Of a DNA stretch of 42,905 bases, positions 3,394 to 42,905 are shown in pieces. Position numbers and translations under genes: made by a program. Within the stretch, counting starts at the first letter, position 1; each line of letters opens with the position of its first letter. This stretch comes from a virus: positions 1 through 42,905 of IMG/VR virus record IMGVR_UViG_3300036860_000398, one strand, 5' to 3'. The notes under the pieces were generated by a model. The model was given only the letters and a program-made list of their open reading frames with translations, had not been told where the DNA came from and searched no databases.

Positions 3394-4046
3394 GCGATCC
3401 TCAGGTAGCCGTTGCAGCTCCAGATTTCACCGGCCGGAAGTCCGTTCGGACTGGTCGGCCACGCCGTATTGCGGACATGGCCGCGGAAGGTCGTGCACTG
3501 CCGACTGTCGATCGTCAGCGCCAAGGTTTCCACCCCGCCGCTCGTGACCGTGAGAATCTGGACACACCCCGGAACTTGGGCCGCGCCCACGGTGCCATCC
3601 ACGGCGACGCGAAGACGCGCACTCGTCTGATAGGCGGCCCCGTCGTAGCCGGCGTAAAACGTCTCGCCGATCACGTCGTCCTTGAGGGCGGCCGTGGGAC
3701 TGGCCGGGGTGCCCCGACTCCGCGCAAAGGTCATCCAGGAGTCGCCCACATCGGGCGTGGCGCTCCCACTGACGAGGTGAATGCCTGCCGCAACGGTCGT
3801 ACTCGAGATGATGAGCTGGTCGGTGGTCCCTGACCACGTGCTCGTGAACGCCGTGGACGGCCCGAGCACCGAGCCCGGCCCGCCGTAGAAGAGGCTGCAC
3901 GAGCCCGTGACGTAGGTCGTGCAGTGGAACAGCACCGTCCCTTCGCCGAGGCCGCTCAGCCGGTGATCCTGATTCCAGTACGACACCTTGATGTGAGCGG
4001 TGGCGTTGTCGGGCACCGTGCCGGTGAAGGCGTGTTTCAGAGGCAT
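3390..4046 (-). CDS. tail fibre-like protein
   Basis: The protein has 218 residues. The N-terminus MPLKHAFTGTVPDNATAHIK and the following YWNQDHRLSG resemble the start of many short phage fibres that attach near the tail. The section with MTFARSRGTPASPTAALKDD, a GETFYAGYDG turn and LRVAVDGTVG matches the repeat-rich fibre domain often preceding a chaperone or knob. It has five Cys, including HCTTY, SCSLF and QCTTF. No intramolecular chaperone domain is visible. Confidence 0.68.
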   Translation of the reverse strand: MPLKHAFTGTVPDNATAHIKVSYWNQDHRLSGLGEGTVLFHCTTYVTGSCSLFYGGPGSVLGPSTAFTSTWSGTTDQLIISSTTVAAGIHLVSGSATPDVGDSWMTFARSRGTPASPTAALKDDVIGETFYAGYDGAAYQTSARLRVAVDGTVGAAQVPGCVQILTVTSGGVETLALTIDSRQCTTFRGHVRNTAWPTSPNGLPAGEIWSCNGYLRIA

Positions 4047-5537
4047 CTAGGCCGCCGTGCAGAGTTGCGAGGCGAAGTTGTTGGTGAAGGCCGCGCCACA
4101 GACCCGGGAGATGCCGAGGGCCCCGCTTCCCGCACTCGAGCCGCCTTGATAGCCCAGCGCTTCAGGCTTCTGAAAGCCATCCGCCCCGAATCCGATGCCT
4201 TGGTAGCCGTCCGCGTCGAAGCTGGTAGCGACCGCCCCCGTAATGAGATTCAGTGCGGAAGAAGCGGGATCGGTGGGGCAGACCTGGGGACAGGGATTCG
4301 GGATGAACGCGGTGCCGCACACGAGCGATGCCCCCAAGACACCAGACAGGAGACCCGGCGTCACCGCCCCGATGCGCACCACGCCCATGAACCCACAGCC
4401 GTTCGGGGTCGTAGTGTCCATGCGATGCGACCGAGTCCACGCGATGGTGGCGCCCGACACCACGCCGCGCCACGCCTCGAAGGCGAAGCCGCCCAGGTTG
4501 AAGAGCACCCCGGTCACGCTGCCGTCGTCGGCGAGGGCGAGCTGGGTGGCGATCATGTAGTTGATTCCCAGCACGAGATCGACGCCAGGCTGGAGGTTGT
4601 AAGTCCCCTCCGTGGGAAAGGTCACCCCGCCGTCGGTGGACATCCGAAACGGCTTCATGTTGGTGGGGGCGTTCGGTGGGCCTTCCACGGTCAGGATCAG
4701 CGTGGTGGCATTCAGGGCGATGACGTCGTTGACCTGCTGACCGTCCTGTCCCACCGGCAGCGAGATCCCGGCCGTGACGTCTGTCCAGCTCGCGCCGCCG
4801 TTCGTCGACCGCACCAGATAGCGCCCGCTGCCGAGGGTGCGCCCCCCTGCGACGAGAGTGCCGGGGCTCGGCTCGCAGATGGACGTGATCGAGAAGAATT
4901 GCCCGGCCACCCAGCCTGGAGGCGCAGGAAGGGGCGTCTGGGTGAAGCTCACCCCGCCGTTCGTGGAGGTCCAGATATTCGGCACGGCATAGCCGGCGTC
5001 GGCGGGGCCGAGCCAGAGCGTCCCCGCACTGTCCTTGAAGCCCCGGTAGATCGCGATCGGGGCCGGCGCTAGGGCGACGGGCGTGTTGAACGTCAGCCCG
5101 CCATCCGAGGACTTGAGAATATGATAGCCGCTGACCCCCTGGACCTTGAAGAGTCCGAGCGCCCAGATGTCGGTCGCGGTCAGCGCGAACACATGGCGCG
5201 TCGTCCAGGTATCACTCTGGGGCGGCGTGGCCTTGAAGACCGAGAGCGGAACCACGCCAGACCAGGACACGGCTTGATTGGTGCTCCGGGCGACGCAGTA
5301 GGGCAACGTGACGGTGGTGGTGAAAAACGGTCCCCCCAATGGCGCAAAAACAGCGCCGGAGACGGGATCGATGCTGGCCCAGAAGTAGTCCGTGTGCCCG
5401 AGCTCGTCCACGCTCGTGAGATCGGCTTGCTGGGTCCAGCTCTGGCCGTTGTCGTCCGAGGTGAAGATGTGATTCGGCTGGGCGCCGGGCGTGCCCGCGT
5501 TCTGGTCTTCGATCTCCCAGACCAGCCGGTTAGCCAC
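4047..5537 (-). CDS. Asp-box (BNR) beta-propeller tail protein
   Basis: The 496-residue protein starts at GTG. It carries five sialidase-type Asp-boxes of the form S-x-D/N-x-G-x-x-W/F at about residues 27-34, 143-150, 191-198, 244-251 and 300-307, plus a degenerate one near 85-92. Asp-boxes mark beta-propellers in sialidases and other glycan-processing or glycan-binding proteins. The catalytic arginine triad of true sialidases cannot be assigned by eye, so binding is as likely as hydrolysis. The last 100 residues carry paired Cys motifs (VCGTAF, PCPQVCP, VCGAAF, LCTAA). It is probably a receptor-binding spike. Confidence 0.72.
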   Translation of the reverse strand: MANRLVWEIEDQNAGTPGAQPNHIFTSDDNGQSWTQQADLTSVDELGHTDYFWASIDPVSGAVFAPLGGPFFTTTVTLPYCVARSTNQAVSWSGVVPLSVFKATPPQSDTWTTRHVFALTATDIWALGLFKVQGVSGYHILKSSDGGLTFNTPVALAPAPIAIYRGFKDSAGTLWLGPADAGYAVPNIWTSTNGGVSFTQTPLPAPPGWVAGQFFSITSICEPSPGTLVAGGRTLGSGRYLVRSTNGGASWTDVTAGISLPVGQDGQQVNDVIALNATTLILTVEGPPNAPTNMKPFRMSTDGGVTFPTEGTYNLQPGVDLVLGINYMIATQLALADDGSVTGVLFNLGGFAFEAWRGVVSGATIAWTRSHRMDTTTPNGCGFMGVVRIGAVTPGLLSGVLGASLVCGTAFIPNPCPQVCPTDPASSALNLITGAVATSFDADGYQGIGFGADGFQKPEALGYQGGSSAGSGALGISRVCGAAFTNNFASQLCTAA

Positions 5538-12431: not shown

Positions 12432-13346
12432 TTAGGCCGATTCGTCGATGCCGATGCTGACCACCGCTTCGTCTTCTACCCGCACCGCGCCCTGCACAAA
12501 TTTCACGATGATCCGGAGGTTGTTCCACTTCCCCGGATCGCGCACCATCTCCGTGTTGAAGTCCCGCGCGAGATTCGCCGTCACGGCATCCCGCTGCCAG
12601 GCAATGCACGTGCGGATGTTGCCGCTCTTGGGCAGGATCGGCGAGGCCATGGTGGTCCCACCGCCGAGGGCATCCGTGACTTTCAGCCACTGGAAGCCCA
12701 TGTAGATTGCGCCCTCTTTGATCGTCCCCGTCATCAGGGCTTGCAGACTGGAAAAGTCCGCGCTGGTGACTTGTGAGTCCGACAGTAGCTTTTCGATGGC
12801 GAATGGCGACACCGCGATGTGGCGCCCTTCCGTGCGCACGCCGTTGACGTCCAGGATTCGGTACGCTTGGCGCAATTTCGCGATGGTCATGTTGGTGCCG
12901 CCGTTGGCGATGGCCTGGCCGCTCGGCAAGGCCACACTCGTCACTGCATCCGCCGCGGAGACCGACAGCGCGGAGCCCAGCATGGCGGTAGTGATGGTCA
13001 GGGCGGTTTGCCGGTTGTACGCATACGCGAAGTTGCGCGCGTAGTCGTTCTCCGGCGAAATCAGCATTTTCACTTCGTCGATATCGTCGATCATCTCGCT
13101 CAGACCGAAGTCCGCGAGCGTCAACCGACGACGGGTATGGATGAACGGGGTCAGATCGGTGTCGGCGTGCCGGCTAAGGATCTGCACGGCTTCGACACCT
13201 TGCAACCGCTCCACGTTGAAGGTCTTGCCCTTGATGCCACTGCGAATCCGCACGGCGGATCGCCACATCTCGCCCATCTCCTGGGACAAGGTGTAAATCG
13301 TGGCCTCGAAGGCATGGACAAACGCGACGTCCACTGTCCAGGCCAT
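12432..13346 (-). CDS. major capsid protein
   Basis: The 304-residue protein lies in the expected position after scaffold. Its features fit an HK97-fold capsid of podovirus type: an N-terminal helix (HAFEATIYTLSQEMGEMW), an E-loop-like stretch (KGKTFNVERLQG), RRRLTLADFG, a long helix (FAYAYNRQTALTITTAML), and P-domain strands (RHIAVSPFAIEKLL, SADFSSLQALMTGTIKEGAI). It has one Cys. The start has an AGGGAGTCC site. Confidence 0.85.
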   Translation of the reverse strand: MAWTVDVAFVHAFEATIYTLSQEMGEMWRSAVRIRSGIKGKTFNVERLQGVEAVQILSRHADTDLTPFIHTRRRLTLADFGLSEMIDDIDEVKMLISPENDYARNFAYAYNRQTALTITTAMLGSALSVSAADAVTSVALPSGQAIANGGTNMTIAKLRQAYRILDVNGVRTEGRHIAVSPFAIEKLLSDSQVTSADFSSLQALMTGTIKEGAIYMGFQWLKVTDALGGGTTMASPILPKSGNIRTCIAWQRDAVTANLARDFNTEMVRDPGKWNNLRIIVKFVQGAVRVEDEAVVSIGIDESA

Positions 13347-13753: not shown

Positions 13754-14668
13754 CTAGCCCTCCGGAATCGTGATGGTGCGCGTCAACGCATCCACGCCGC
13801 GACCACCGCGGGCGATGCCGATCAGTGCATGGAATTTTTCCAGCGCTTGCACGTGGCCGGGATGCGAGCCGTTCCAATACGGGCCCTTCTTGTCGGCCAG
13901 CAACGCCGCGATCTGCGCTTCCGCGTCCTCGCGGCTGACTTCGCCGGGAATGTCGCCCGTGATCTCGCCGTCCTCCAGCATGGCCCCGCCGATCCACGCC
14001 AAAAGCTTCACCATCGCGGGACTGTTGCCTGACTCTTGCTCAATGAGATGGGCGATTCGAGGATCGCCAGTTTTCTCCGCCGCCACTCGAGCGGCCTCAC
14101 GAGCAAGAGCCAGGTTCCGCGAATACAGAGGCGAGTTCTTCGGGCCCCAGGACTTCACGAGATCCGCCTCGGCCTCGCGCCGCTCCGTAGCATCTCGGGC
14201 CGTCACCTGATCGGCGCCCTTGATGGCCAGCTCGGCGAAAAGGTCGATGGCGGCCTGCGCCTGCTTCGGGGTGTAGCCCGCACTGTGCAAGCGCGTCAGC
14301 GCGTGGCCCTGGAGCACCGGGTCCCACGTCTTGCCGGGCACCTCCGGCCACGTCACCGGGTACTTGTCGGGCGACTCCGGCACCCCCAGCTTGCCGTGGA
14401 AGGCTTTCCACTCGTCCGGCGTCGCGCCCTCTTTCGGCACCCGAATGGCGTCGCCCACCATGCGCTTGGTTTCCGTGTACGACTTGGCGAGGGCGGCGAT
14501 GTCCTTGAAGGACTCCAGCGACTTGTCGGCGCGCAGGTCCTCGGGCAGCACATTCCGCCACGTGAGATTGACCAGCTCGGCATCGGACAGCTTCTCCCAA
14601 TCGGGTTCGCTGGGAGCGCCGTTCGTCTCGTGGGCGACGGTTGGGGCTGTGACGACTTCATCCGCCAC
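13754..14668 (-). CDS. scaffolding protein
   Basis: The 304-residue, acidic, mostly helical, Cys-free protein lies directly between portal and capsid. The conserved-looking centre (LPEDLRADKSLESFKDIAAL, AKSYTETKRMVGDAI, PDEWKAFHGKLGVP, ESPDKYPV) matches phage scaffold proteins of this group. The C-terminal region (EDAEAQIAALLADKKGPYWN, then HPGHVQALEKFHAL) is the usual capsid-interacting helical end. It would assemble the procapsid and then leave. Confidence 0.85.
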   Translation of the reverse strand: MADEVVTAPTVAHETNGAPSEPDWEKLSDAELVNLTWRNVLPEDLRADKSLESFKDIAALAKSYTETKRMVGDAIRVPKEGATPDEWKAFHGKLGVPESPDKYPVTWPEVPGKTWDPVLQGHALTRLHSAGYTPKQAQAAIDLFAELAIKGADQVTARDATERREAEADLVKSWGPKNSPLYSRNLALAREAARVAAEKTGDPRIAHLIEQESGNSPAMVKLLAWIGGAMLEDGEITGDIPGEVSREDAEAQIAALLADKKGPYWNGSHPGHVQALEKFHALIGIARGGRGVDALTRTITIPEG

Positions 14669-15013: not shown

Positions 15014-15171
15014 TTCCGCCCCCGCAACTGGATCATCCGCGCCAGCACTTCCCCCGCGTTCTTCTGCGCGTTGACCAAGCGCGCGATGTCCTCCAAGACG
15101 ATGTGATCGATGTCCCGATAGGCGCGCACGAGCGCCGCCTGCTCGGTCTCTTGCTGTTCCTTCGTCTTCAC
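15010..15171 (-). CDS. small helical protein after portal (53 aa)
   Basis: The predicted protein begins MKTKEQQETEQAALVRAYRD and is amphipathic and charged throughout. GTG at 15171 overlaps the portal stop (GTGA), and its own stop overlaps the next GTG. It could be a portal- or scaffold-associated helical peptide. No family is recognised. Confidence 0.55.
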   Translation of the reverse strand: MKTKEQQETEQAALVRAYRDIDHIVLEDIARLVNAQKNAGEVLARMIQLRGRK

Positions 15172-16850
15172 GCCGCCACCCGCGTTTGTCCGTTGGGCGA
15201 GCCCATGGCTTGTCCCATGTTGGTCAGGGAGTCGAGTGCTGGCGACGCGTTCTTCGCCATCTCGGCCACCTGGCTCGCCTTGTCCATGTCGGCCTGCCGC
15301 TGAGCCGCCTGCTGCCGCTGGGCCCGCATCTGGTCGCGCTGCTGGGGGTCAGCCAGCCACCGCGACGACCACCCGAGATCCAAGGCCAGATCCCGGCCAA
15401 GCTGGTCCGTGTTGAGGTTGTCCAGAATGTCGGGCTTGATCTGGATGAGCGGCAACATGGTCGCGAGCCACGCCTGAAACGCTTCTATATGCTGATGCTT
15501 CTGCGCCTGGGCCAGCGGCCCCTCGTATTCGATGTCCATGTCCTGCCCCTGCAACTCGTCGGGGAGCGGCGGCAAGGCATTCGCGCGGAGCATCAGCCCG
15601 AACACGCGATTGATGATGAGATTGAGGTATTCCGATTCGAGCCGACTCAACCAAGGGGCAAGCAGGCGCAAGATGCGGATGGTGCGCTCGCGCACCTCGG
15701 TCGCCGTCATGGTCTGATCTTGCGGGAGCTGCAATTGCTCGTAGAAGAAAATGTGCTGGATTCTTGCCCGCAGATCCTGCGAGAGCACTTGGGAGACATC
15801 GAAATTCGCGCCGAGCTGAATGGGCTTGATCACCGGCTTGCCGGGACTCATCGAATCGTCGACGGTATTGACGCCATGAGCGCGGAGATCCAAGTCTCCA
15901 ATAACGCCGTCGTTGGGCACTTCGACCGGAGGAGCGACCGAAGCAGCCGCCGATTCGAGTGTGAGCTCCACACAACGATTGAGCGTCCGCACGTCGGGCA
16001 AGGCTGTATGCGCAGGCGAACGGCCGTACATTTCCCCGCTCGTCTTCGACCACCGCGGGACGACGTACGGGAACTCTTCATACCCGCCTTCCCCGAGCAG
16101 CTTGTTGTGCGGCAGCGCGATCCAGAGCGAGTAGATGGCTTTGTTCTTCGCCGTCACCTTCGAGGGGTCGTAGCTGGTCCGCGGACCCACGCAGTGCAGG
16201 ATCTCGTATTCCTGCTCCGGCTTGTCCCGCGCCATGTCCGCGATCAGCTTGCCGTGATCGTTAGGATTCGACCAGCGCTGCACGACGGCCCGCGCGGTCA
16301 GCTTGTGGCTGGTGTAGCACGTATCGACACGCCCATCCGCATCTTCGTCGATCGCGAAGCCCCCCGGCGGAAAGGCACGGAACCGCAGACCCCCGAAGCT
16401 GGTGGCGCCCTCCGTCACCACCTTGTCCTTCTCTTCGATGTACAGACAGCCGATCCCGAACGCGCCGAGGTCGAGATACACCTCGTTGGTCTCGGGATTG
16501 AAGTTCGACTGCTGGAGCGCGAGGTACATCCGCTCTTCGACTTCATCGAGCCAGAGCCGGACATTCGGCATGTCGTTGAATTGTTTCTCGCGCATCTTGA
16601 GGGTGAACCAGCGCGCCTGGGGATTGGTGACCGAGCCGTGAATGTTGGATGCCAGCAGCTCAAGCGCGTGGCCGGGCGTGGCATCGAAGAGTCGGTCGGT
16701 TTGCTTCGCCCCCTCTGGCCGTTTTCGTGTAATGACTGACCGGTACGGGAGCAAAAATTCGGCGACTTCCTGGTTGAGAATGTCAAAGAGCGCACGCTTG
16801 GCCTTGAGGCGCTGGTAGCGGCGCACATGGTATTCGACGTCTGCGGCCAC
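15168..16850 (-). CDS. portal (head-tail connector) protein, T7 gp8-like
   Basis: The 560-residue protein starts at a GTG right after the upstream stop. Hallmarks of podoviral head-tail connectors are present: RRYQRLKAKRALFDILNQEV, AEFLLPYRSVI, DATPGHALELLASNIHGSVT, NPQARWFTL, YLDLGAFGIGCLYIEE, YGRSPAHTALPDVRTLNRCV, and a long C-terminal helical barrel part (MTATEVRERTIRILRLLAPW). The dodecameric ring forms the DNA entry channel. The Gln/Ala-rich end (QRDQMRAQRQQAAQRQAD) is typical. Confidence 0.9.
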   Translation of the reverse strand: MAADVEYHVRRYQRLKAKRALFDILNQEVAEFLLPYRSVITRKRPEGAKQTDRLFDATPGHALELLASNIHGSVTNPQARWFTLKMREKQFNDMPNVRLWLDEVEERMYLALQQSNFNPETNEVYLDLGAFGIGCLYIEEKDKVVTEGATSFGGLRFRAFPPGGFAIDEDADGRVDTCYTSHKLTARAVVQRWSNPNDHGKLIADMARDKPEQEYEILHCVGPRTSYDPSKVTAKNKAIYSLWIALPHNKLLGEGGYEEFPYVVPRWSKTSGEMYGRSPAHTALPDVRTLNRCVELTLESAAASVAPPVEVPNDGVIGDLDLRAHGVNTVDDSMSPGKPVIKPIQLGANFDVSQVLSQDLRARIQHIFFYEQLQLPQDQTMTATEVRERTIRILRLLAPWLSRLESEYLNLIINRVFGLMLRANALPPLPDELQGQDMDIEYEGPLAQAQKHQHIEAFQAWLATMLPLIQIKPDILDNLNTDQLGRDLALDLGWSSRWLADPQQRDQMRAQRQQAAQRQADMDKASQVAEMAKNASPALDSLTNMGQAMGSPNGQTRVAA

Positions 16851-17656: not shown

Positions 17657-17875
17657 TTACTTGCCTCCGCAGGCGATGGCGGCGTTGGCGGTCATTACGG
17701 CTTCACGGACCTTGCGGACGGCCGCAGTCTGGTCGGCCGAGGCCGGCGTGCAGTCCACGATGGCTTGCGCCAGCACAAGGCCGGCATTCCGAATGCGGGA
17801 ATACTTCTCGGGCTGACCATCCGTCGGCGCGTGATACGTGAACCAGTTCAGGAGTTCATCGGGACCGATCGGCAT
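17657..17875 (-). CDS. acb2: Acb2-like anti-CBASS cyclic-nucleotide sponge
   Basis: The 72-residue protein has the full pattern I associate with the Acb2 (T4 Vs.4-like) family: LLNWFTYHAPTDGQPEKYSRI near the start, a helix with NAGLVLAQAIVDCTPAS, and the C-terminal signature AAVRKVREAVMTANAAIAC. Known Acb2 proteins form oligomers that sequester cyclic di- and trinucleotides and so block CBASS immunity. The ATG at 17875 overlaps the previous stop (TGATG). It sits among late morphogenesis genes rather than in an early defence island. Assignment is by sequence pattern only. Confidence 0.75.
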   Translation of the reverse strand: MPIGPDELLNWFTYHAPTDGQPEKYSRIRNAGLVLAQAIVDCTPASADQTAAVRKVREAVMTANAAIACGGK

Positions 17876-18929: not shown

Positions 18930-19258
18930 GCCATGGCCTTCAAGCGGCGGCGCCGCTCCCGCTGCTGCGCCAAGCGCCGCTCCCGGTGCCGGTGATGAAA
19001 CGCCCGATGACACGCCCGCTTGTCGGTGTGAATCTTGGGCCGCCCCAAGCGATCGCCCTTCACCCGCCCGGCCCCGCGGCGATTGAGATTCTTGATGTCC
19101 TTGAACTGGCCGGGGACGATCACGTGCACGGGCAGGCCCGGAAGCGTCGGGGCGCCATGCTCCTGCACCAGATGCTCGCCGAGTCTCGCTGAGGGCCCCA
19201 CGATCCCGCAGACCGGACACCGCACCATGGCCCGCTCGTAGTCGCGGATCTCGCTCAT
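18926..19258 (-). CDS. C2H2 zinc-finger protein downstream of terminase (110 aa)
   Basis: A C2H2-like finger is visible near residues 14-35 (CPVCGIVGPSARLGEHLVQEH). The middle is Arg/Gly-rich (NLNRRGAGRVKGDRLG), and the end is very basic with several His (HRAFHHRHRERRLAQQ). It overlaps the terminase stop (ATGA). A DNA-binding role in packaging is a fair guess, not shown. Confidence 0.6.
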   Translation of the reverse strand: MSEIRDYERAMVRCPVCGIVGPSARLGEHLVQEHGAPTLPGLPVHVIVPGQFKDIKNLNRRGAGRVKGDRLGRPKIHTDKRACHRAFHHRHRERRLAQQRERRRRLKAMA

Positions 19259-20688
19259 CCCGGCCAGACTCGCGGCGCCCGCCCGTGATCCAAGGGATTC
19301 CACTGCGTGATGCGCGTCGGCTTGTGCGGCTGATATTGCTCGCTCAGCCGCCCCAGCTTGGAGGGCTGCATGCCGGCGATGAGGTAACAGAACGCATCGC
19401 CGTAGTCCTCGTGCGGATGATTCGGTTTCTTCGGCTCCGCTTTGATGCTCGTCAGCTCGCCTCGAGGCCCGGCGGCGTAATACCAGCCTCCATTAAGAGC
19501 GCGAACAAGTCCTCGGGCTTGGACCGGGTCAATGAGTAGTCCGTCGCGCACGTTGAGCAGTGCAAGTAGAGGGTCCAAGCGTCCTGCCCACGTGGTCGGA
19601 CCAGGCCGGTAGGTACCAGGCAGGAGCTGCCGCAAGACCCGCAAGGGATTGCTGTCGATGTCCCCAGCGTCGTCCGTGTTGAGGGTGGGGTCATAGACGA
19701 CGTGCAGGAAGTCTCGATCTCCATCAATCACCCACGGCATGTGCTCGCTCAGCCACGGAATGAGCCAATCGCGCACGTGCTGGCGCATGCCCGCGTGCTC
19801 GCTCGAGAGCGCAGCCAAGACACGAATCTGCGGCCCCTCGCGCTGGGCGAGGACGCTGGTCGGTGTATGCCCGCCGTCCTGGCCAATCCAGAGCGGCTGC
19901 GCGCGATTGGGCCGCAGTCTCGTCCCGATGGGCGCGTGCACATCTTCGTTGAAGCCGACGGCGACCTGAGGCCCGAGCGCCAACGTCCCCGGATGCCCTT
20001 CAAGCAAACGGCGCAGCATGTCAGGGCGGTTCGCCAGCGCGCGAGACCACTCGGCCCGCTGCGCCGCGGACGCGAGCTCGCCAGGCGGGATGCGAAAGTA
20101 TTTTGTCCCTGGATGCTGCTGGACGACGAACCTTTGCCAGGTCCAGTGTTCTTCGTCGGGATAGTTCAGCGTCATGATGGCGGGGTGGCAGTGCGACGCG
20201 AGCCGCTGCGACGTCAAGCCGAGGCCCCAAGCCGACTCACTGAGACCGGACGACTGCACCAAGACAGACGAGGGGGCGGGCTCTTCGAACCAGAGACCGT
20301 GACATTCGGCTCGGAGCCGGTCCATTCCACTTTGATCTTCGACCCCGAAGAGTCGGAGATGAACAAGATCCACGCCTGCCACGGAGAAGACGGCGAGGTG
20401 GCCTCCGTCGCGAAGCTGCCAGAGCCCGTACCATCCGGGGGCTTGAAGACTGTCGTGGGTTTTGCTGACGTGGGACTGGAAGGTATCGGCCGCCCCGAGC
20501 CATTTCGTGGGGAGTGGGAAGCCGTCGGCGTGGTGCGTTTGCGCATGCGCGATCATCGCGCCAAAGGCGCCCCACGTTTTGCCATCACCCCGCGTGCCAA
20601 ACGCGGCGAGCTCACGCGCCGTCCCCTGTGCCGTCGCTGAGATGAAGGCGGATACCGTCGGCTTGAAGTGGAGATCGAGGGTGTCCAT
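19255..20688 (-). CDS. terminase large subunit
   Basis: The 477-residue protein has the packaging ATPase P-loop GTRGDGKTWG at residues 31-40, a Walker B HGLWFEEP near 131-138, the coupling-type motif MTLNYPDEEHW near 173-183, and a nuclease half with WIGQDGGHTPTS (Asp272 candidate) and HEDYGDAFCYL near the end. It would cut concatemers and drive DNA into the procapsid. Its start overlaps the upstream small-terminase candidate by 77 nt. Confidence 0.88.
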   Translation of the reverse strand: MDTLDLHFKPTVSAFISATAQGTARELAAFGTRGDGKTWGAFGAMIAHAQTHHADGFPLPTKWLGAADTFQSHVSKTHDSLQAPGWYGLWQLRDGGHLAVFSVAGVDLVHLRLFGVEDQSGMDRLRAECHGLWFEEPAPSSVLVQSSGLSESAWGLGLTSQRLASHCHPAIMTLNYPDEEHWTWQRFVVQQHPGTKYFRIPPGELASAAQRAEWSRALANRPDMLRRLLEGHPGTLALGPQVAVGFNEDVHAPIGTRLRPNRAQPLWIGQDGGHTPTSVLAQREGPQIRVLAALSSEHAGMRQHVRDWLIPWLSEHMPWVIDGDRDFLHVVYDPTLNTDDAGDIDSNPLRVLRQLLPGTYRPGPTTWAGRLDPLLALLNVRDGLLIDPVQARGLVRALNGGWYYAAGPRGELTSIKAEPKKPNHPHEDYGDAFCYLIAGMQPSKLGRLSEQYQPHKPTRITQWNPLDHGRAPRVWPG

Positions 20689-22540: not shown

Positions 22541-23571
22541 CGCGTTAACACCCCCGCGCAGACAGCGAGAAACAGCAAGCCCACCGCCGGATGCCGGATC
22601 GGCCAATGGCCGAGCGACAAGATGCAGCCGCTCACGAACGCCGCCGACCATGCATCCCCCGTGTTCACGTTTTGAACAAGCGGCCACAAGAACAGCAGCG
22701 CCGCCGCGAGCCCGAGCAGCCCGTACTCATACGCAATCTGCCCGAGCTCAAAGTGCGCTTCCCCTGGGGGGAGCAGATGCGAGCGCGGTTCCGTCGTCCG
22801 GATTTCCGTACTCCAGCGCACCATCTGGCGGGGCATGTGGCCCCCGCCGACGCCCGCCAGGGTGAGCCGCGACAGCAGCAGTCGCCACGTCATCCAGCGC
22901 CCGCGCACTGTTCCTGTACTCATCCCTCGAATGGTGTGCGCGTCCAGCCACCGCGTGAGTTTCTTGTCGGGATCGTGATGGCTCGAGTAGCGCTCCGAGA
23001 CAAACACGACCATCCCGAATCCCAGGACAAAAGAAGTCGGCGCCGGCACCAGCAGGAACGACGCGACGCCCACCGCGAGGATGGCCAAGAAGCTGCTCGT
23101 TAACCACAGGCCCCAGGCAAACACCGGCCACAGCCACCACGGCGCGAAGAAGATCGTCAACGCCAGGAAGTTGGCGCTGGTGGGCGGCGAGCCATAGGTG
23201 CCGGGGGGGCGCGCCGTCCCTTTGTGCCACTGCCACGTCAGCAGCGCGACTTGGGCGAGGCCCCACACGACCCAGGCGTAGCTGATCCGCGTAAACGTAT
23301 CGGCATCGAGCTGACGGAGCAGAAACCACGATGCGCCGACGCCGATCCAGCAGACCAGACTCTCAAGGCGCTGGGGCCCGTCCCACCGCCACAGGAACCA
23401 TGCCCCGATCGCGGCTAACCAGTACTCGTGCACATACATCATCGCCACGATCGTCAGGAACAGTGTGCAAAGTAACCAGCGGTCGCGGGCGGTGCGCAAG
23501 TACTCCGGCGCCACGTGGGGCACGAAGTTCGCCGGGGCCAGCGCCGCCGCGAGGCTGATGAGAAAAATCAC
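22537..23571 (-). CDS. O-antigen ligase/polymerase-like membrane protein
   Basis: GTG at 23571 overlaps the methyltransferase stop, giving 344 residues with about nine or ten hydrophobic segments. Family-like features are GTYGSPPTSANFLALTIFF in the middle, a periplasmic loop with GVGGGHM, and HFELGQIAYEYGLLGLAAAL near the C-terminus, equivalent to the conserved H-x-x-Y-L-x-x-x-x-E-x-G-x-x-G of Wzy/WaaL-type enzymes. In a phage it could change the host O-antigen or capsule to block superinfection. The catalytic residues are not certain by eye. Confidence 0.6.
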   Translation of the reverse strand: MIFLISLAAALAPANFVPHVAPEYLRTARDRWLLCTLFLTIVAMMYVHEYWLAAIGAWFLWRWDGPQRLESLVCWIGVGASWFLLRQLDADTFTRISYAWVVWGLAQVALLTWQWHKGTARPPGTYGSPPTSANFLALTIFFAPWWLWPVFAWGLWLTSSFLAILAVGVASFLLVPAPTSFVLGFGMVVFVSERYSSHHDPDKKLTRWLDAHTIRGMSTGTVRGRWMTWRLLLSRLTLAGVGGGHMPRQMVRWSTEIRTTEPRSHLLPPGEAHFELGQIAYEYGLLGLAAALLFLWPLVQNVNTGDAWSAAFVSGCILSLGHWPIRHPAVGLLFLAVCAGVLTR

Positions 23572-24422
23572 ACGGCCTCGACTTCGACGATCACTGCCGA
23601 GCACAAAAACATGCTGCGCCAGTCGTGGGGCTGCTCCAGCGCCACCATGGCTTTCTTGATCTCGGGGTCATCGTGGTTGCCCAGCCATGGCAAGGTCGCG
23701 TGCGCGTGGTAGTAGTGAAATTGCGGCACGCCGAAGCCGCACTCCTTGAGCAGGCCAGGCAGAGACAGCGGATTGTGAAAGCGGCGCGTGGTCGGCTCCG
23801 GCGGGGGTTCGGTGATGCGCAGCATCTCGTTCAGGACGACACCGACGTTCTGCCGGATGTTCGTCTCCCACGCCACGCCGCCCAGCAGCTCATTGACGAT
23901 AAACTCCGCCGTGTAGCGGTTCATGCTGAATAAGCTGAACAGCGCGTTGCGCACCTCGAGGTAGTACACCGTCCCCGGCTGGCCGAGCATGCGCAGATTC
24001 TCTAGCGCCCGACGGTCATCACTCACGTGCGGCAAGACGCCCAAGCAGAGAATCGCGTCGGGCCGCGGCTGCGCTAGCATCGGCGCCAGCGTCGTCGCGT
24101 CCTCCAGGTCCGCCCATCGCAGGTCGCCGTCACGCGCGACGAAATCCTCGGGGATCTGCGCGAGCATCGCGTCGGAGGTATCGCAGCCGCCGAGCACGTG
24201 ATAGCCGGCGCTGTGCAGCAGGCGCAGCACATAGCCATCGCCACACCCGACCTCGTAGACACTGGCGTGGATCGCGATCGGGAAGCGCCGGGCCAGACTG
24301 CGGAGCACCGGCCAGAGGCGCACGTAATTCGAGTGATCCCCCGTGGCATCTGAGGCTTTGGGATACCACGCCTCCCGGTAGTCCTTGGCAATCTCGGCGT
24401 AATACTCGCTCACGGGTTTCAT
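23568..24422 (-). CDS. class I SAM-dependent methyltransferase
   Basis: The 284-residue protein starts at ATG 24422 with an AAAGGA site upstream. Motif I is clear (SVYEVGCGDGYVLRLL, residues 55-70), followed by HVLGGCDTSDAML, a post-I acidic region with DLRWADLED, and ILCLGVLPHVSDD (motif IV-like). The C-terminal part (RNALFSLFSMNRYTAEFIVN, FHNPLSLPGLLKECGF) resembles small-molecule or sugar methyltransferases more than DNA enzymes. Together with the O-antigen-ligase-like gene it suggests surface glycan modification. Confidence 0.75.
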   Translation of the reverse strand: MKPVSEYYAEIAKDYREAWYPKASDATGDHSNYVRLWPVLRSLARRFPIAIHASVYEVGCGDGYVLRLLHSAGYHVLGGCDTSDAMLAQIPEDFVARDGDLRWADLEDATTLAPMLAQPRPDAILCLGVLPHVSDDRRALENLRMLGQPGTVYYLEVRNALFSLFSMNRYTAEFIVNELLGGVAWETNIRQNVGVVLNEMLRITEPPPEPTTRRFHNPLSLPGLLKECGFGVPQFHYYHAHATLPWLGNHDDPEIKKAMVALEQPHDWRSMFLCSAVIVEVEAV

Positions 24423-24433
24423 GCGCGGTCCTT

Positions 24434-24592
24434 TCAGGCGACGCGGCCCAACGGATCGTGGATTTCTTCCAAGCCCCGGCGCTCCGTCTCCTCCTGCAGA
24501 TAGTACGGATTCCAGCCGTAGCCTCTTCTGCTGGGCGGCGGCGGCGCGCCCAGCAGGGCCCACGGGAGCAGGAGTTGCTCAGGATCGCTCAT
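24434..24592 (-). CDS. small protein upstream of the methyltransferase (52 aa)
   Basis: It starts MSDPEQLLLPWALLGAPPPP and has a Tyr/Trp-rich centre (RRGYGWNPYYLQEETERRG). It is 11 nt from the methyltransferase start. It is probably the first gene of the surface-modification block. Its start lies 30 nt from the divergent plus-strand promoter. No family is recognised. Confidence 0.5.
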   Translation of the reverse strand: MSDPEQLLLPWALLGAPPPPSRRGYGWNPYYLQEETERRGLEEIHDPLGRVA

Positions 24593-34195: not shown

Positions 34196-37100
34196 CGGGT
34201 CAGCGTCCCCGGCGCCACTCCGAAATGCGGACTGCGCGGATTGTCGATGGGGAGTTTCTTCTCCAGTTGCCGCATCTGATGGGCCTTGAGATCCTGGTCG
34301 AGCTCCGGCAACTCCTGCCGCAAACGCAGGAGCGCGATTTCCTTGTAGGTGTTCACCACGGTCTTGATGAGCCCCGCCTTGCCGCCTTCCGACCCCGGGG
34401 ACTGGCGCTGATACTCCGGCGTGCGCATCATGGCCTCGAGCGCTTCGTGGAGGTTCCGCCCGTTGCCGTCCTTCACCTCCTTGCCCATCAGCACGACGTA
34501 GCGGTCATATTCTTGAAGGGTGAGCTCAAGCCCGGGCGCGCGCAGCGGCTGGTAAATCTGCACCCCGCTCGCCGGCTGTGCAGGCCCCGCGACAAACCGA
34601 GAGGGCATTGACAGCGCTACCCGATTCTGCACGATCTCATTGCGGACGGGATCATCCTTGATGGTGGAGGTGTAGATGGGCGAGATCAGGTCTGGCCCCC
34701 ACCCGCCTTGTAGCCGGATCGGTTCGGCGAAGAGGTTCCGCCGCGGGGGCAGCGTCGCCGACCATCCCGGTACCGCCGCTTTGATCTCGTCCAGCAGCGT
34801 CCGCGTCTCGCGCACCGTGGGATCGAGCTGCCGTTCGATCTGGCGTACGAGACCCGGGACGAGGCTTCGGACGAAGCCCTTGGCGTACGTGTGTGCGCCC
34901 TCGTCCGGCTTCTGGATGGCCTCTAGGACATTGCTCAGGCCCTCAAGGTAGGTCTTGCTCACCATGTGCTTCGACACGGCCAAGCCAAGAGCCGACGCGA
35001 TGCTGAGAGCGTCGTCCTCGGGAAGTTGCCCCAGGATTTCCGAAGCATCCGCCGTGATCCCGATCAGGGCGCCCAGCGGATCGAGCCGACTATACGCATA
35101 GTACGTCTCGCCGACGTCGATCGAGTAGGGCTGCCAGCCGGTCTCCCGTAACTCCCGCACGAGATTCTTGTCCTTGGGACCGCCGCCCGTGATGAGGCCT
35201 TGCGCGGCGAGGATGGCCACGGTCGCGGAGGCCATCAGCCCGGCGGAGAACCGCCCCAAGGCCAGATCCCGCTGCGCGCCGGGCGTGGCCAGATCGCTGC
35301 GCATCTTCTCCGAGAGCAGATTCAAGCCCGGGAGCCGCTGCCAGGTGTAATTGAGAATGTTGATCGGCGTCCGCACGAAGGGCATCACAAGGCGCCCGCC
35401 CGGCGTGGAATCCACGAAGCGCATCAGGGCTTGGCCACTCGGGCCCAACGCGTTGTTGAAAGTCTGGATCAGCGCGAATTGCTCGGCCGCGGTCTTGATG
35501 TTCGGCGAAGGATTCCGCTCGAGATCCGCCACCCGACGTCCGAAGGCATCGCCCGTCAATCCCTCCAGGGTGGCCTCCCGCACGGCCTGGGCCTTGAGCT
35601 CCATGCGGTAATTGACGGCCTTGAACATCGCGTCCTCAGCCGTGAGCAGCCGCGTCGGCATGCGCACCACATTGCCGAGGAAGTCAATCGCTCGGCCGAG
35701 CATGGAGTCCGTGGCCACGCCCGCCCCGGAGGCCGTGATGGCCGGCGGACGCTCTACTTTCTCGACGCCAAAGACCGAGACGTCACCTTCCCGGAGCGCC
35801 TTGCCGGTGAGACGCAGCCCATCGCCGAATCCGTCCACCAAGCCGCGCAGCATCGCCGTCGCTTCCCCGCGGACCACGCCGGGGTCGCTGCCGAAGTGGA
35901 GATTCTGGGCGAGCCAGCGTTCGGGAATCGACCACAGCGCCGTCCCCGCATTGCTCAGCGTGTTCGCTGCGTGGGTCTGCGGCCCCGAGAGCAGCGAATT
36001 GATCCAGGCTTCGTAGATCATGTTTTGCCCAGCCCGGAGCCCACTCACCGTCTGCTCGGCGAACATCTCTTTCTGCGCCTTCGTCCGCAACTGCGTCAGG
36101 CGCTCCGCGAGGGTGCCAGGATCGATCTCTGGCGCCGTGGACAGCGTGCGCGAGAGATCTGCGATGTCCCCGAGATTCATGGCGGACCGCTCGGCGGAGG
36201 ACAGAATCTTGCGCGCCTCCAAGCCGCGGGCCACGTTGCGCGCGATCATCTCGTCACGCACGGCGAGCTCGCCGGCCACCGTGAAGGCGTTGACCAGATC
36301 GGCGGACGCCTCGGCATCCCCCTGGATCGTCCGCTTGGCGAGATCGTCCACGTAGGTGGCGGCCTTGTTGTAGTGATCGCGCAACGCCGTCATCTGGGCC
36401 CGGTCCAGCATGGTGCTCTCAGGATCGAGCGACAGGGCGTGCTCGAGCGTCAGCGCTCCCTGGCTCTCAGCCACTGTCTGGGCGTGCGTGACGGGCACCC
36501 GGCTGGGCGCCGTACGCTCGGCCTGGAAGGCGTTGATGTTCTGAATCGTCTTCTTGACGGATGCCGTGGCGTCGATGCGGCCGACGTTGACCCGCGCTTC
36601 GCCGGGCGCCTTGGGCGTGATCGGAGTCCGCCCGGTCGTGGGCTCAGGGGGAAAGCCGATCGAGCCGCGCTCACTCGTCAAGATGGTTTTCAGCTTGGCT
36701 AGCCGCTCCTCGGACGACAGCACCCCCATGGCGCTAGGAGTCGCCAGGACAGCGGCAATCGTGCCGGCCACCGCGGCCACCTTCGTGGCTGTCGGCGTAT
36801 CCAGCCCGAGGCCCTGCGCCGCCCGGTTCGCCACCTCGTGCACGGCCGTCCCGATGGGGTTGCGCACACTCTCCGCCAGTTGCTCGGTCAATTCGGCCGG
36901 CGCCCCCGCGCGCGTGGAGGCGCTGCGCACCAGGGCCTCGCCGACGTTGGCGATCGGCTGATTCAGGCGCAAGGAGACTTTCTCGGGTAGCGTCCCCTCC
37001 TGGACGGCTTTCTCGAGCTCGTCCACGCCATAGCCCGTCATCGTTTTGAGCACGGTACTGAGCCCCTCGCGGAAGGGATTCGCGACCGGGGCCGCTTCGG

Positions 37101-40523: not shown

Positions 40524-42813
40524 TGACTTCCAGCCCCCCGATGAACGCCAACACGGTCAGCGGCTTTGGGTCCACTTGCTGCAACACCAAGGTCTGCTCC
40601 CGCGACCACCCGATGTTGACGTTGCCCTCGAGATCGCCCGTGAACGGCGCCCCCGTCACGTCGGGATCGGTGACCCCTTCGTCGTTGGGATAGACCAGCG
40701 CTTCGCTCTGGAGCTTCGGATGGCCCGAGGTGCAGTAGACCCGCCACACCAGCCGGGTCCAGCTTTTCTTGCGCCCCTGGGCGGTGCCCGTGGCGCCCAT
40801 GTATTCCGGACGCAGTGTCTCCAGCGTGGACACGAACCCCAGGCCCACCTCAGCGCTGGTGGCCGTGACGCCCGCGGGCAACGTCACCACGCCATTCGTG
40901 ACCACCAGATCGTAGAAGGAGCAGCCGGGGCTGGTGATGACCTTGACCGTCTTGCCTTCGAGGTGCCCCGCCCCGGTCAGGCTGGACACCGCGACGCCGG
41001 AGTACAGCAAGCCCGCGTCCGTATTCATCTGCCCATCGAAGACTTCGATCAGCCCGAGCGTGGTGCAGCCGCCTCCGTTAAAGAACTGCGTGTCGAAGAA
41101 TCGATGATCAAAGAAATTGGCGTCCCAGTAGGCGCCCGACGTCAGCGTGCGCCGCGTGGCCGTCCAGAGTTCATCCGAGGTGCCGCAGGCGTTCGGGATG
41201 GCCGCGATGGAGTCGAACAGCCCGCACGTCTCATGCGAGCTCCAGCCGACCACCTCTTGCTCGCGGTCGTAGGCCATGCTGAGTAGCACCCCATCCGGCC
41301 GGAGTGCAAAAACAACGGGATCAGGGGTGATGGCGAAGATCATCTCGGCGATCTGATCCCGCGTCAGGTGCTCGGCCAGGATCGTCACGTCGGGCATCTG
41401 GTACTTGTTGTTCTGGAACACAAACACGTTTTCGCGCACCCGCTGGGCGCCCCGCTGGACAAACAGCGCGACCCCGGAGGCCATCACGGCATCGACGGTG
41501 TAGTCCGATCCGTAATTCGCCTGGCTCTTGATGCGCACGTTCGTCGGGGTGATCGGGGCGTCCGCGCCGCCGTCCAGGGTGAACTCTCCGGCGATGGTCA
41601 TGAGCAGCAGGACTTCGCTGTCGCCCGTCCCGCCTTTCATCGCCCGGATGAGCTGCAATCCGTTCTCGGAAATCGTCAGGTCCAGCCCGTCGTCATCGTT
41701 GGCGCCCCGGCCGAAGTTGCGGAAGTCCCCGACCACGGAGGCCCACACGGAATCGGGGAAGTTGGGCGAGCCGGCGAACCACAGCCGTTGGGCGTAGAGC
41801 GCCACCACGCCCGGCCAGCCGAGATCGTCCGACCACGAGGACGACTCGAGGGTCCAGAGCCCGCTGGTGGCGACGGTGGTGGTCTGCTGCGTGAGCTCCT
41901 TGACGATCACGCCGGTTACGGCTGTCGTTGAGTAGACCTGGGTAATCCGAATCGAGCCGTCGAAGGCGACGAGATATTTCCCGACATCGGTCGAGCGGAA
42001 CGCGGGAAGCGTGGAACTCACAGGCGATGCAGGAATTCCCACCACGAGGCCAATAGGCCGGTACGCTTGGAAGTTCAGGTCGCCGTAGTTGGGCGAGCCG
42101 TCCATCGTCCACGTGCCGGCGAGGAAGGGCCCGGTGCTGGGGAAGGCGTCGATGATATCCACCGTGGCGGACGTTGCCGACGTCACCCCGGTGATACTCG
42201 CCCGCCCCGCGCCGTAGATGAGGTTGCGGCCCCGATCGCCCGCGAGGAAGACATCGCTGCTGGTCGTTGCCGTCACCCCGTTGCCCGTGGCGGCCGACAG
42301 CGTGAGGGTTGCGGCAAAGGTCACCGGCTGCTCGAAGGTCGGCGGGGGGGAGGCGTGAAACTCGTTGAATTGAAACTCGGTCGCCGTCACGCGCACGAGC
42401 TGCTGAGGCGGATGGTGAATGTGAGTGAACCACATGAAGTCCGCCGATTGCGTGAACCGGAGCTCGCGCAACTCGGTCTCGGTGTACGGCGTCACGACTT
42501 CCACGGGAACGTTGAGAGAATCAACGACCAGGCCGCGGGCGGTCCAGAACCGGAAATAGAAGACGCCGGCTTCGATGATATACGCCTGCGAGTTGGAAAA
42601 GATGAACGGGATCAGGCGCACCCGGTGGCTGGGATCTTTCGTCCGCCCCAGGAACATTGTTCCTGCACGGCGGCTGACCCCGCCATGCGGCAGGCAGAGA
42701 AAATTCTTGAGGCAGCGGGCGCCGTTCTTGATCTTGGCGAGATCGACGTGGCCGATCAGGCGATCACTGATCTCGCCCGCATTGAAACTCGTCTGGATCA
42801 GATGCGTCGGCAT
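40510..42813 (-). CDS. tail tubular protein B-like (T7 gp12-like nozzle)
   Basis: The 767-residue protein starts HLIQTSFNAGEISDRLIGHV, a typical gp12-type N-terminus (S-F-x-x-GE-x-S), followed by LKNFLCLPHGGVSRRAGTMF. Further typical parts are VVALYAQRLWFAGSPNFPDS, WASVVGDFRNFG, then DDDGLDLTI, and GVLLSMAYDREQEVVGWSSH with a following DELW. It forms the hexameric nozzle. It carries seven Cys, including TCGLF where related proteins I remember have DGLF, and GCSFY in the C-terminal third. The ATG lies 2.8 kb from 40 kb end and 46 nt after the previous gene across the circle. Confidence 0.88.
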   Translation of the reverse strand: MPTHLIQTSFNAGEISDRLIGHVDLAKIKNGARCLKNFLCLPHGGVSRRAGTMFLGRTKDPSHRVRLIPFIFSNSQAYIIEAGVFYFRFWTARGLVVDSLNVPVEVVTPYTETELRELRFTQSADFMWFTHIHHPPQQLVRVTATEFQFNEFHASPPPTFEQPVTFAATLTLSAATGNGVTATTSSDVFLAGDRGRNLIYGAGRASITGVTSATSATVDIIDAFPSTGPFLAGTWTMDGSPNYGDLNFQAYRPIGLVVGIPASPVSSTLPAFRSTDVGKYLVAFDGSIRITQVYSTTAVTGVIVKELTQQTTTVATSGLWTLESSSWSDDLGWPGVVALYAQRLWFAGSPNFPDSVWASVVGDFRNFGRGANDDDGLDLTISENGLQLIRAMKGGTGDSEVLLLMTIAGEFTLDGGADAPITPTNVRIKSQANYGSDYTVDAVMASGVALFVQRGAQRVRENVFVFQNNKYQMPDVTILAEHLTRDQIAEMIFAITPDPVVFALRPDGVLLSMAYDREQEVVGWSSHETCGLFDSIAAIPNACGTSDELWTATRRTLTSGAYWDANFFDHRFFDTQFFNGGGCTTLGLIEVFDGQMNTDAGLLYSGVAVSSLTGAGHLEGKTVKVITSPGCSFYDLVVTNGVVTLPAGVTATSAEVGLGFVSTLETLRPEYMGATGTAQGRKKSWTRLVWRVYCTSGHPKLQSEALVYPNDEGVTDPDVTGAPFTGDLEGNVNIGWSREQTLVLQQVDPKPLTVLAFIGGLEVSDSF

Positions 42814-42905
42814 CAGCCACCCCTCAGGGAGCCGTGGCGGTGGTCACGGCGCGGACTCATCAGACAAACCAGCCGGTCTGCGGGGCGCCCTGGTCTTCCA
42901 CTAAG
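42779..42905. repeat. terminal direct repeat, right copy
   Basis: Exact copy of positions 1-127. Removing one copy gives a circle of 42,778 bp in which the tail gene ending at 82 is followed, 46 nt later, by the tail tubular B gene. Confidence 0.95.

Follow-up and report, generated by a model that had tools for sequence, protein, structure and literature searches.

The stretch of viral DNA analysed here, 42,905 nucleotides in length and referred to below as the window, encodes a 72-residue protein that is a member of the Acb2/Tad1 hairpin superfamily, and this membership gives good support to a sponge-type function. Taking the analysis as a whole, we consider it quite probable that the protein acts as an Acb2/Tad1-type hairpin multimer that sequesters a host cyclic nucleotide alarm signal, its specificity being putative. 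By sequence comparison, the branch of the superfamily to which it belongs, that of phrog_1454, is separate from canonical Acb2 and has conserved residues of its own.

Gene, family membership and predicted fold

The open reading frame is read on the minus strand from an ATG at 17875 to a stop at 17657, with an alternative GTG start one codon upstream (17878). Its start codon (ATG) overlaps the stop codon (TGA) of the preceding ORF, and the ATG of the following ORF comes directly after its stop, so that the gene forms part of a tight gene array (Table 1). Most differences from four relatives lie at third codon positions (for example, 12/11/32 differences at codon positions 1/2/3 over 63 codons in the comparison with relative L011), and on this comparison the gene is real, coding and under purifying selection. 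Promoter and Shine-Dalgarno scans gave chance-level signals only and were uninformative on the timing of the gene.

Table 1. Features of the packaging/head region of the window, in the order in which they are read
Feature	Coordinates	Strand	Evidence or remark
Probable terminase large subunit (TerL)	19255..20688	minus	tblastn to BcepC6B TerL, 24.8%, E 9e-6
Small ORF upstream, 52 aa	17875..18033	minus	Stop overlaps hairpin-gene ATG; without family match
Acb2/Tad1-hairpin gene, 72 aa, phrog_1454 branch	17657..17875	minus	PF24729, phrog_1454, AF2
Codons Tyr14-His15 (ligand-Tyr position of Acb2)	17831..17836	minus	Tyr counts in relatives
Codon Arg29 (position of canonical Acb2 invariant Lys)	17789..17791	minus	Arg 82/82 in branch
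ORF directly downstream, 142 aa	17228..17656	minus	Without family match
Portal / head-to-tail connector	15168..16850	minus	PF12236 E 3.1e-126; phrog_332
Capsid protease/scaffold-like protein	13754..14668	minus	phrog_3742 E 3.8e-41; phrog_458 protease E 3e-8
Major capsid protein (MCP)	12432..13346	minus	PF19821 E 9.9e-50; phrog_3437

The first-pass annotation had proposed a family search as a check of its Acb2 assignment, and the search returned a clear match: Pfam PF24729 (Acb2_Tad1_hairpin) scores 46.6 bits (E 3.9e-12) against a curated cut-off of 27 bits, over profile positions 1-58 of 58, so that the lack of a match, named there as grounds for giving up the idea, is not what was found. The protein is also matched by phrog_1454 (E 1.9e-16), and none of 14 control genomes gave a family match at the default threshold. 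PF24729 likewise finds the proven sponges T4 Vs.4 and PaP2 gp26, two Acb2 proteins with solved structures, in their own genomes, with protein-level scores of 71.4 and 66.1 bits, respectively.

By sequence, the link between the branch and canonical Acb2 rests on more than the Pfam match. The phrog_1454 profile reaches T4 Vs.4 at 7e-4 and a Vs.4 relative at 3e-4. A diversified profile (A3), composed of the 72-residue protein, 10 relatives from viral contigs and 13 homologues from named phages, finds PDB entry 9ptq ('Acb2 homolog 43') over the whole hairpin (E 4.4e-6) and gives an end-to-end alignment of 65 columns with 17 canonical Acb2 sequences (E 0.00099); each of the 24 A3 members is itself matched by PF24729. 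Searches closer to the protein itself did not reach as far: phmmer with the 72-residue protein alone found neither solved Acb2 nor solved Tad1 in the PDB, and a narrow profile (A1), built from 68 of the 80 kept relative loci after removal of 11 exact duplicates and of L023, which hardly differs from L018, found no solved Acb2 or Tad1 there and gave no significant profile-profile match to canonical Acb2 profiles. PADLOC and NCBIfam returned nothing for the protein, and the NCBIfam result says little because the Acb2 proteins of T4 and PaP2 have no NCBIfam match either. EscE-type chaperones, HK97 gp5 and a cilia protein, all weak matches of A1 or A3, were rejected as cases of helical or short local similarity.

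The AF2 model (pLDDT 95) places helices at residues 5-11, 21-42 and 47-69, that is, a short helix and two long antiparallel helices in the layout of the Acb2 protomer. It consists of helix 5-11 and the hairpin with no further domain, in agreement with the description of Acb2 in the available part of the source as a short N-terminal helix plus hairpin and nothing more (PMC10419184). The model contains no strands, and only 12 residues precede the profile match. When the model was compared with the PDB by Foldseek, the first three rows were T4 Vs.4 chains (E 0.97 to 1.9), and VIA-align gave Z 6.5 for Vs.4 and Z 6.0 for Acb2 8h2x, values tied with those of unrelated helical chains. When canonical PaP2 Acb2 was modelled as a control, it reached T4 Vs.4 at E 0.003 to 0.012 by Foldseek, which makes the match at 0.97 weaker than one between two proven members; the predicted fold alone would not decide the family assignment. 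In BFVD, 15 of the first 16 rows bear the name Acb2/Tad1 hairpin.

Conserved residues and separation from canonical Acb2

Residues were counted in 69 close sequences (A1), 13 named-phage sequences and 49 canonical sequences, the last group comprising 35 of 80 PaP2-Acb2 loci and 14 of 35 T4-Vs.4 loci (15 of the latter were picked, and L199 was dropped for stop codons). The S-2L sequence used in these counts began upstream of its likely start and was trimmed for the tree described below. Position 14 is Tyr in 64/69 close sequences (His in 5), in 10/13 named-phage sequences (Phe in 3) and in 49/49 canonical ones; it corresponds to Y8 of T4 and Y11 of PaP2, and the available part of one report states that the Y8A substitution in T4 abolishes dinucleotide binding (PMC12657218). 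The T4 residue F82, described in the same excerpt as stacking on the nucleotide base (PMC12657218), has its counterpart in Ala68 of the 72-residue protein, and PaP2 likewise carries Ala there. Fifteen residues after position 14 in all three groups, position 29 is Arg in 69/69 close and 13/13 named-phage sequences and Lys in 49/49 canonical ones. Arg29 thus stands at K23 of T4 and at K26 of PaP2, the latter of which we take to be a ligand contact.

Other positions mark the branch off. Canonical R85 is Arg in 49/49 canonical sequences and in 0/82 branch members, which have Ala or Ser there, and canonical R/K12 is replaced by His (His15) in 81/82. Within A1, D48, R57 and T62 have been gained and fixed, R54 and N64 are present in 68/69 sequences, Arg29 and Arg57 in 69/69, and 7 columns are invariant across the 69. 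The invariant residues of canonical Acb2 are G10, N23, R85 and P90; the 72-residue protein does not carry this signature and is therefore not filed as canonical Acb2. A FastTree analysis of 131 sequences separated the branch from canonical Acb2 with a support of 0.993 and a long internal branch, on an alignment of just 66 columns whose finer branching order is not to be trusted.

These results divide the original reading of the protein as an Acb2-like sponge that follows the Acb2 pattern over its whole length, with FTYHAP near the start and REAVMTANAAIA at the end. The whole-length match stands, since PF24729 covers 58/58 positions, and so does the assignment to a hairpin superfamily; membership of Acb2 in the narrow sense does not, given the branch support and the 0/82 count for the canonical Arg. 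Both FTYHAP and VRKVREAVMTANAAIA are present in the protein, and FTYHAP and REAVMTANAAIA characterize the phrog_1454 branch rather than canonical Acb2. Judged by conserved residues, the nucleotide pockets expected by the first-pass annotation would be retained in part: the ligand Tyr and the basic residue are kept, and the canonical Arg85 is lost.

Genomic setting and spread among viruses

The window begins and ends with an exact 127-base direct repeat (1-127 and 42779-42905). This makes it likely that the record is a complete phage genome of about 42.8 kb, although no completeness estimate is attached to it. Matches to tail proteins, internal virion proteins and a head-tail connector point to a phage of podovirus type, and no tRNA was found in the window. 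The genes are ordered as probable TerL, small ORFs, hairpin gene, small ORFs, portal, protease-like protein and MCP, which agrees with the earlier placement of the hairpin gene in a packaging/head cluster. The probable TerL itself has no Pfam or PHROG match. A methyltransferase-like gene (23568-24563; phrog_4752, E 5.9e-7) lies upstream of the packaging genes. The further claim that conserved head-associated small genes stand on both sides was not borne out: among the flanking small ORFs scanned none rose above the Pfam cut-off, the two immediate neighbours have no PHROGs or NCBIfam match either, and none of the small ORFs between TerL and portal turns up again in the 88 loci holding relatives of the hairpin gene. 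Queries for relatives of the window phage returned none with the portal and two contigs, at 38%, with the MCP.

Two related phages have the same backbone without a hairpin gene: the TerL-portal interval holds four small genes in Pelagibacter phage Baldr and one in Burkholderia phage BcepC6B. These two are the related head modules in which the full interval is visible (L217 and L218), and no hairpin relative was found in them or in two partial relatives (L215 and L216). Conversely, the window portal was found in 1 of the 88 loci with hairpin relatives, and none of the other head genes of the window lies near the relatives in the flanks scanned (at most 5 or 10 kb). Pfam annotation of neighbouring genes (110 of 178 long ORFs, taken from the same strand, with a few skipped, from a list running through L067) identified, among other families, AAA_24 in 6, PDDEXK_1 in 5, AAA_23 in 4, DNA_pol_A in 3 and C5 methylase in 3, together with the structural families SU10 portal (3), Terminase_3 (3) and capsid E (2).

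A sample of 13 named phages is similarly mixed. The homologue lies between TerL and portal in Streptomyces phage BRock, after the portal in ChisanaKitsune, before TerL in OmniCritical, among tail genes in S-2L, near thymidylate synthase, reductase or RecA genes in KimJongPhill, Strosahl, Jenst and Octobien14, in replication regions in Hayley and Halcyone, near helicase and structural genes in phage 1706, and amid genes mostly of unknown function in Tunturi_1 and Phabba. By sequence context, then, the hairpin gene has the distribution pattern of a mobile accessory gene. The earlier idea that late placement times the sponge with lytic assembly is not supported: the gene is accessory and sits elsewhere in early-type or late-type modules, and such mixed neighbourhoods lend no comparative support to late timing. 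In this phage it may well be read with the late genes, which is a guess.

Several annotations of these relatives deserve separate mention. Cyanophage S-2L contains an unannotated hairpin-family ORF between tail genes (L219 ~4001-4201; MW334946.1 ~35214-35414), and a 'tail assembly protein' is annotated as starting before this ORF ends. In the Paenibacillus/Brevibacillus phages Hayley (L213), Jenst (L224) and Halcyone (L226), the hairpin genes are annotated 'phosphomannomutase', a label unsuited to hairpin proteins of 67-71 aa. In Gordonia phage ChisanaKitsune (L211 5989-8253), an RNA ligase gene comes after the hairpin gene, as does one annotated as a VIP2-like ADP-ribosyltransferase toxin; together they may form a cluster that serves host takeover or counter-defence.

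The single-protein search found relatives on at least 145 viral contigs and profile patterns on at least 290; for comparison, the single-protein search gave at least 308 viral contigs for PaP2 Acb2 and at least 36 for T4 Vs.4, all of these counts being lower bounds because exact peptide seeds were needed. The search of named phages gave 126 records with E values up to 1, mainly phages of Paenibacillus, Mycobacterium and Gordonia, and the best match is Tunturi_1 on Tunturiibacter (51.5% identity). Eight MAG contigs also encode relatives, a putative occurrence for which contamination or prophage origin is possible. In one relative (L044, from 5001), the hairpin domain is joined to about 90 further residues in a single 153-aa ORF. 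In PaP2-type Acb2 (L087-L166), the inter-helix loop is very variable, with 35 translated matches spanning 74 to 114 aa.

Proposed function and relation to known systems

The mechanism we infer would begin with a host that makes a cyclic nucleotide alarm signal on infection. The 72-residue protein, a stand-alone helical hairpin that would be multimeric by homology (Acb2 and Tad1 are hexamers), may hold this nucleotide at the protomer interfaces of the oligomer via Tyr14 and Arg29. The signal would be sequestered and not cleaved, as is described for Acb2 and Tad1 in the parts of the sources available (PMC12043709, PMC10449767), and free signal would then fall below the threshold of the suicide effector, which would stay silent. 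Candidate signals are the di- or trinucleotides of CBASS or cyclic ADP-ribose, and the branch's own conserved set (His15, Asp48, Arg54, Arg57 and Asn64) suggests that the protein may favour a different signal from canonical Acb2; the changed pocket calls for care in choosing among the candidates. An accessory, mobile distribution is as expected for a counter-defence gene.

The mention of cyclic ADP-ribose raises the reading of the protein as a Thoeris-type sponge, Tad1-like and aimed mainly at that signal rather than at CBASS nucleotides. Pfam joins Acb2 and Tad1 in PF24729, profile A3 touches Tad1 chains weakly and in the hairpin region only (E 0.29-0.86), the canonical dinucleotide-pocket Arg is missing from the branch, and Tad1 itself binds both kinds of signal according to the available part of one source (PMC12043709). 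We nonetheless regard this reading as unlikely, as the protein consists of 72 residues in helices only, with no N-terminal beta-sheet domain, the structure comparison ranks Acb2 rows (Z 6.5) above those of Tad1 (Z 4.7), and the ligand Tyr of Acb2 is kept.

It is very unlikely that the gene encodes a small head or packaging protein, such as a chaperone or adaptor of the TerL-portal interval, because the related head modules contain no match and the relatives stand beside unrelated, mixed genes; this is so even though the gene adjoins the portal and the probable TerL region, the hairpin has weak similarity to secretion chaperones (E 0.83; Z 5.9), and the BRock homologue occupies the same interval. 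The replacement throughout the branch of two positions that are fixed in canonical Acb2, together with the long internal branch of the tree, could also be accommodated by a hairpin of the same fold whose sponge function was lost or changed, for example into that of a regulator; the Tyr and the invariant Arg residues are, however, kept under strong constraint and resemble a working pocket, not decay, and we consider such a change highly improbable.

Under the preferred sponge reading, the gene of the single phage studied here is unremarkable, a counter-defence gene of a known kind that occupies an accessory slot, and its product is an ordinary member of a known family, so that the interest lies in the branch as a whole. 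Tentatively, and with some doubt, the phrog_1454 branch may be seen as an extensive group of sponges that has escaped notice, with a rebuilt pocket (Tyr/Arg/His, and extra invariant Arg and Asn that stand in for the canonical Arg85) and retuned binding. If so, the branch may suit a signal for which canonical Acb2 and Tad1 have little affinity or, alternatively, may be adapted to avoid decoy nucleotides, for example those of Panoptes; sponges of the Acb2 fold would also be far commoner than is stated in the parts of the literature available, with Acidobacteria and Planctomycetes as possible hosts. Should the branch bind nucleotide signals, signal-based immunity would be widely fought in phyla in which, to our knowledge, CBASS and Thoeris have received hardly any study, and the pocket differences would show one fold retuned to new signals.

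The domain name Acb2/Tad1 hairpin is already present in UniProt protein names, and actinophage homologues have been announced by annotation as Acb2 or CBASS antagonists, as far as the available parts of the sources indicate (PMC13348362, PMC11953737); their assignment to this branch is putative. The literature searched yielded no experiments on the phrog_1454 branch, and 9ptq shows that a homologue has been solved. This entry, the nearest solved structure by profile, is diverged, with FDTHL in place of FTYHAP and KLEEAMFFA in place of KVREAVMTA. The 72-residue protein falls in the subfamily represented by phrog_1454 and by UniProt entries named 'Acb2/Tad1 hairpin domain-containing protein', among them those of Mycobacterium phage Phabba and Tunturiibacter phage Tunturi_1. 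By structure, the Phabba protein matches it at E 1.6e-5; the proteins of Phabba (142 aa) and KimJongPhill (134 aa) have C-terminal extensions, which the window protein lacks.

With the Acb2/Vs.4 proteins (T4 vs.4; Pseudomonas phage PaP2 p26; PaMx33/41), the 72-residue protein shares PF24729, the arrangement of a short helix and two long helices in a small stand-alone phage protein, and a Tyr followed 15 residues later by a basic residue. It differs from Acb2 in having Arg for Lys26, His for R/K12 and Ala for Arg85, a shorter loop (72 aa vs 93 and 88) and its own R54, R57, D48 and N64. With Tad1, its family has the Pfam hairpin domain and the sponge principle in common, whereas the N-terminal beta-sheet domain of Tad1, described in the available part of one source (PMC12043709), has no counterpart in the window protein.
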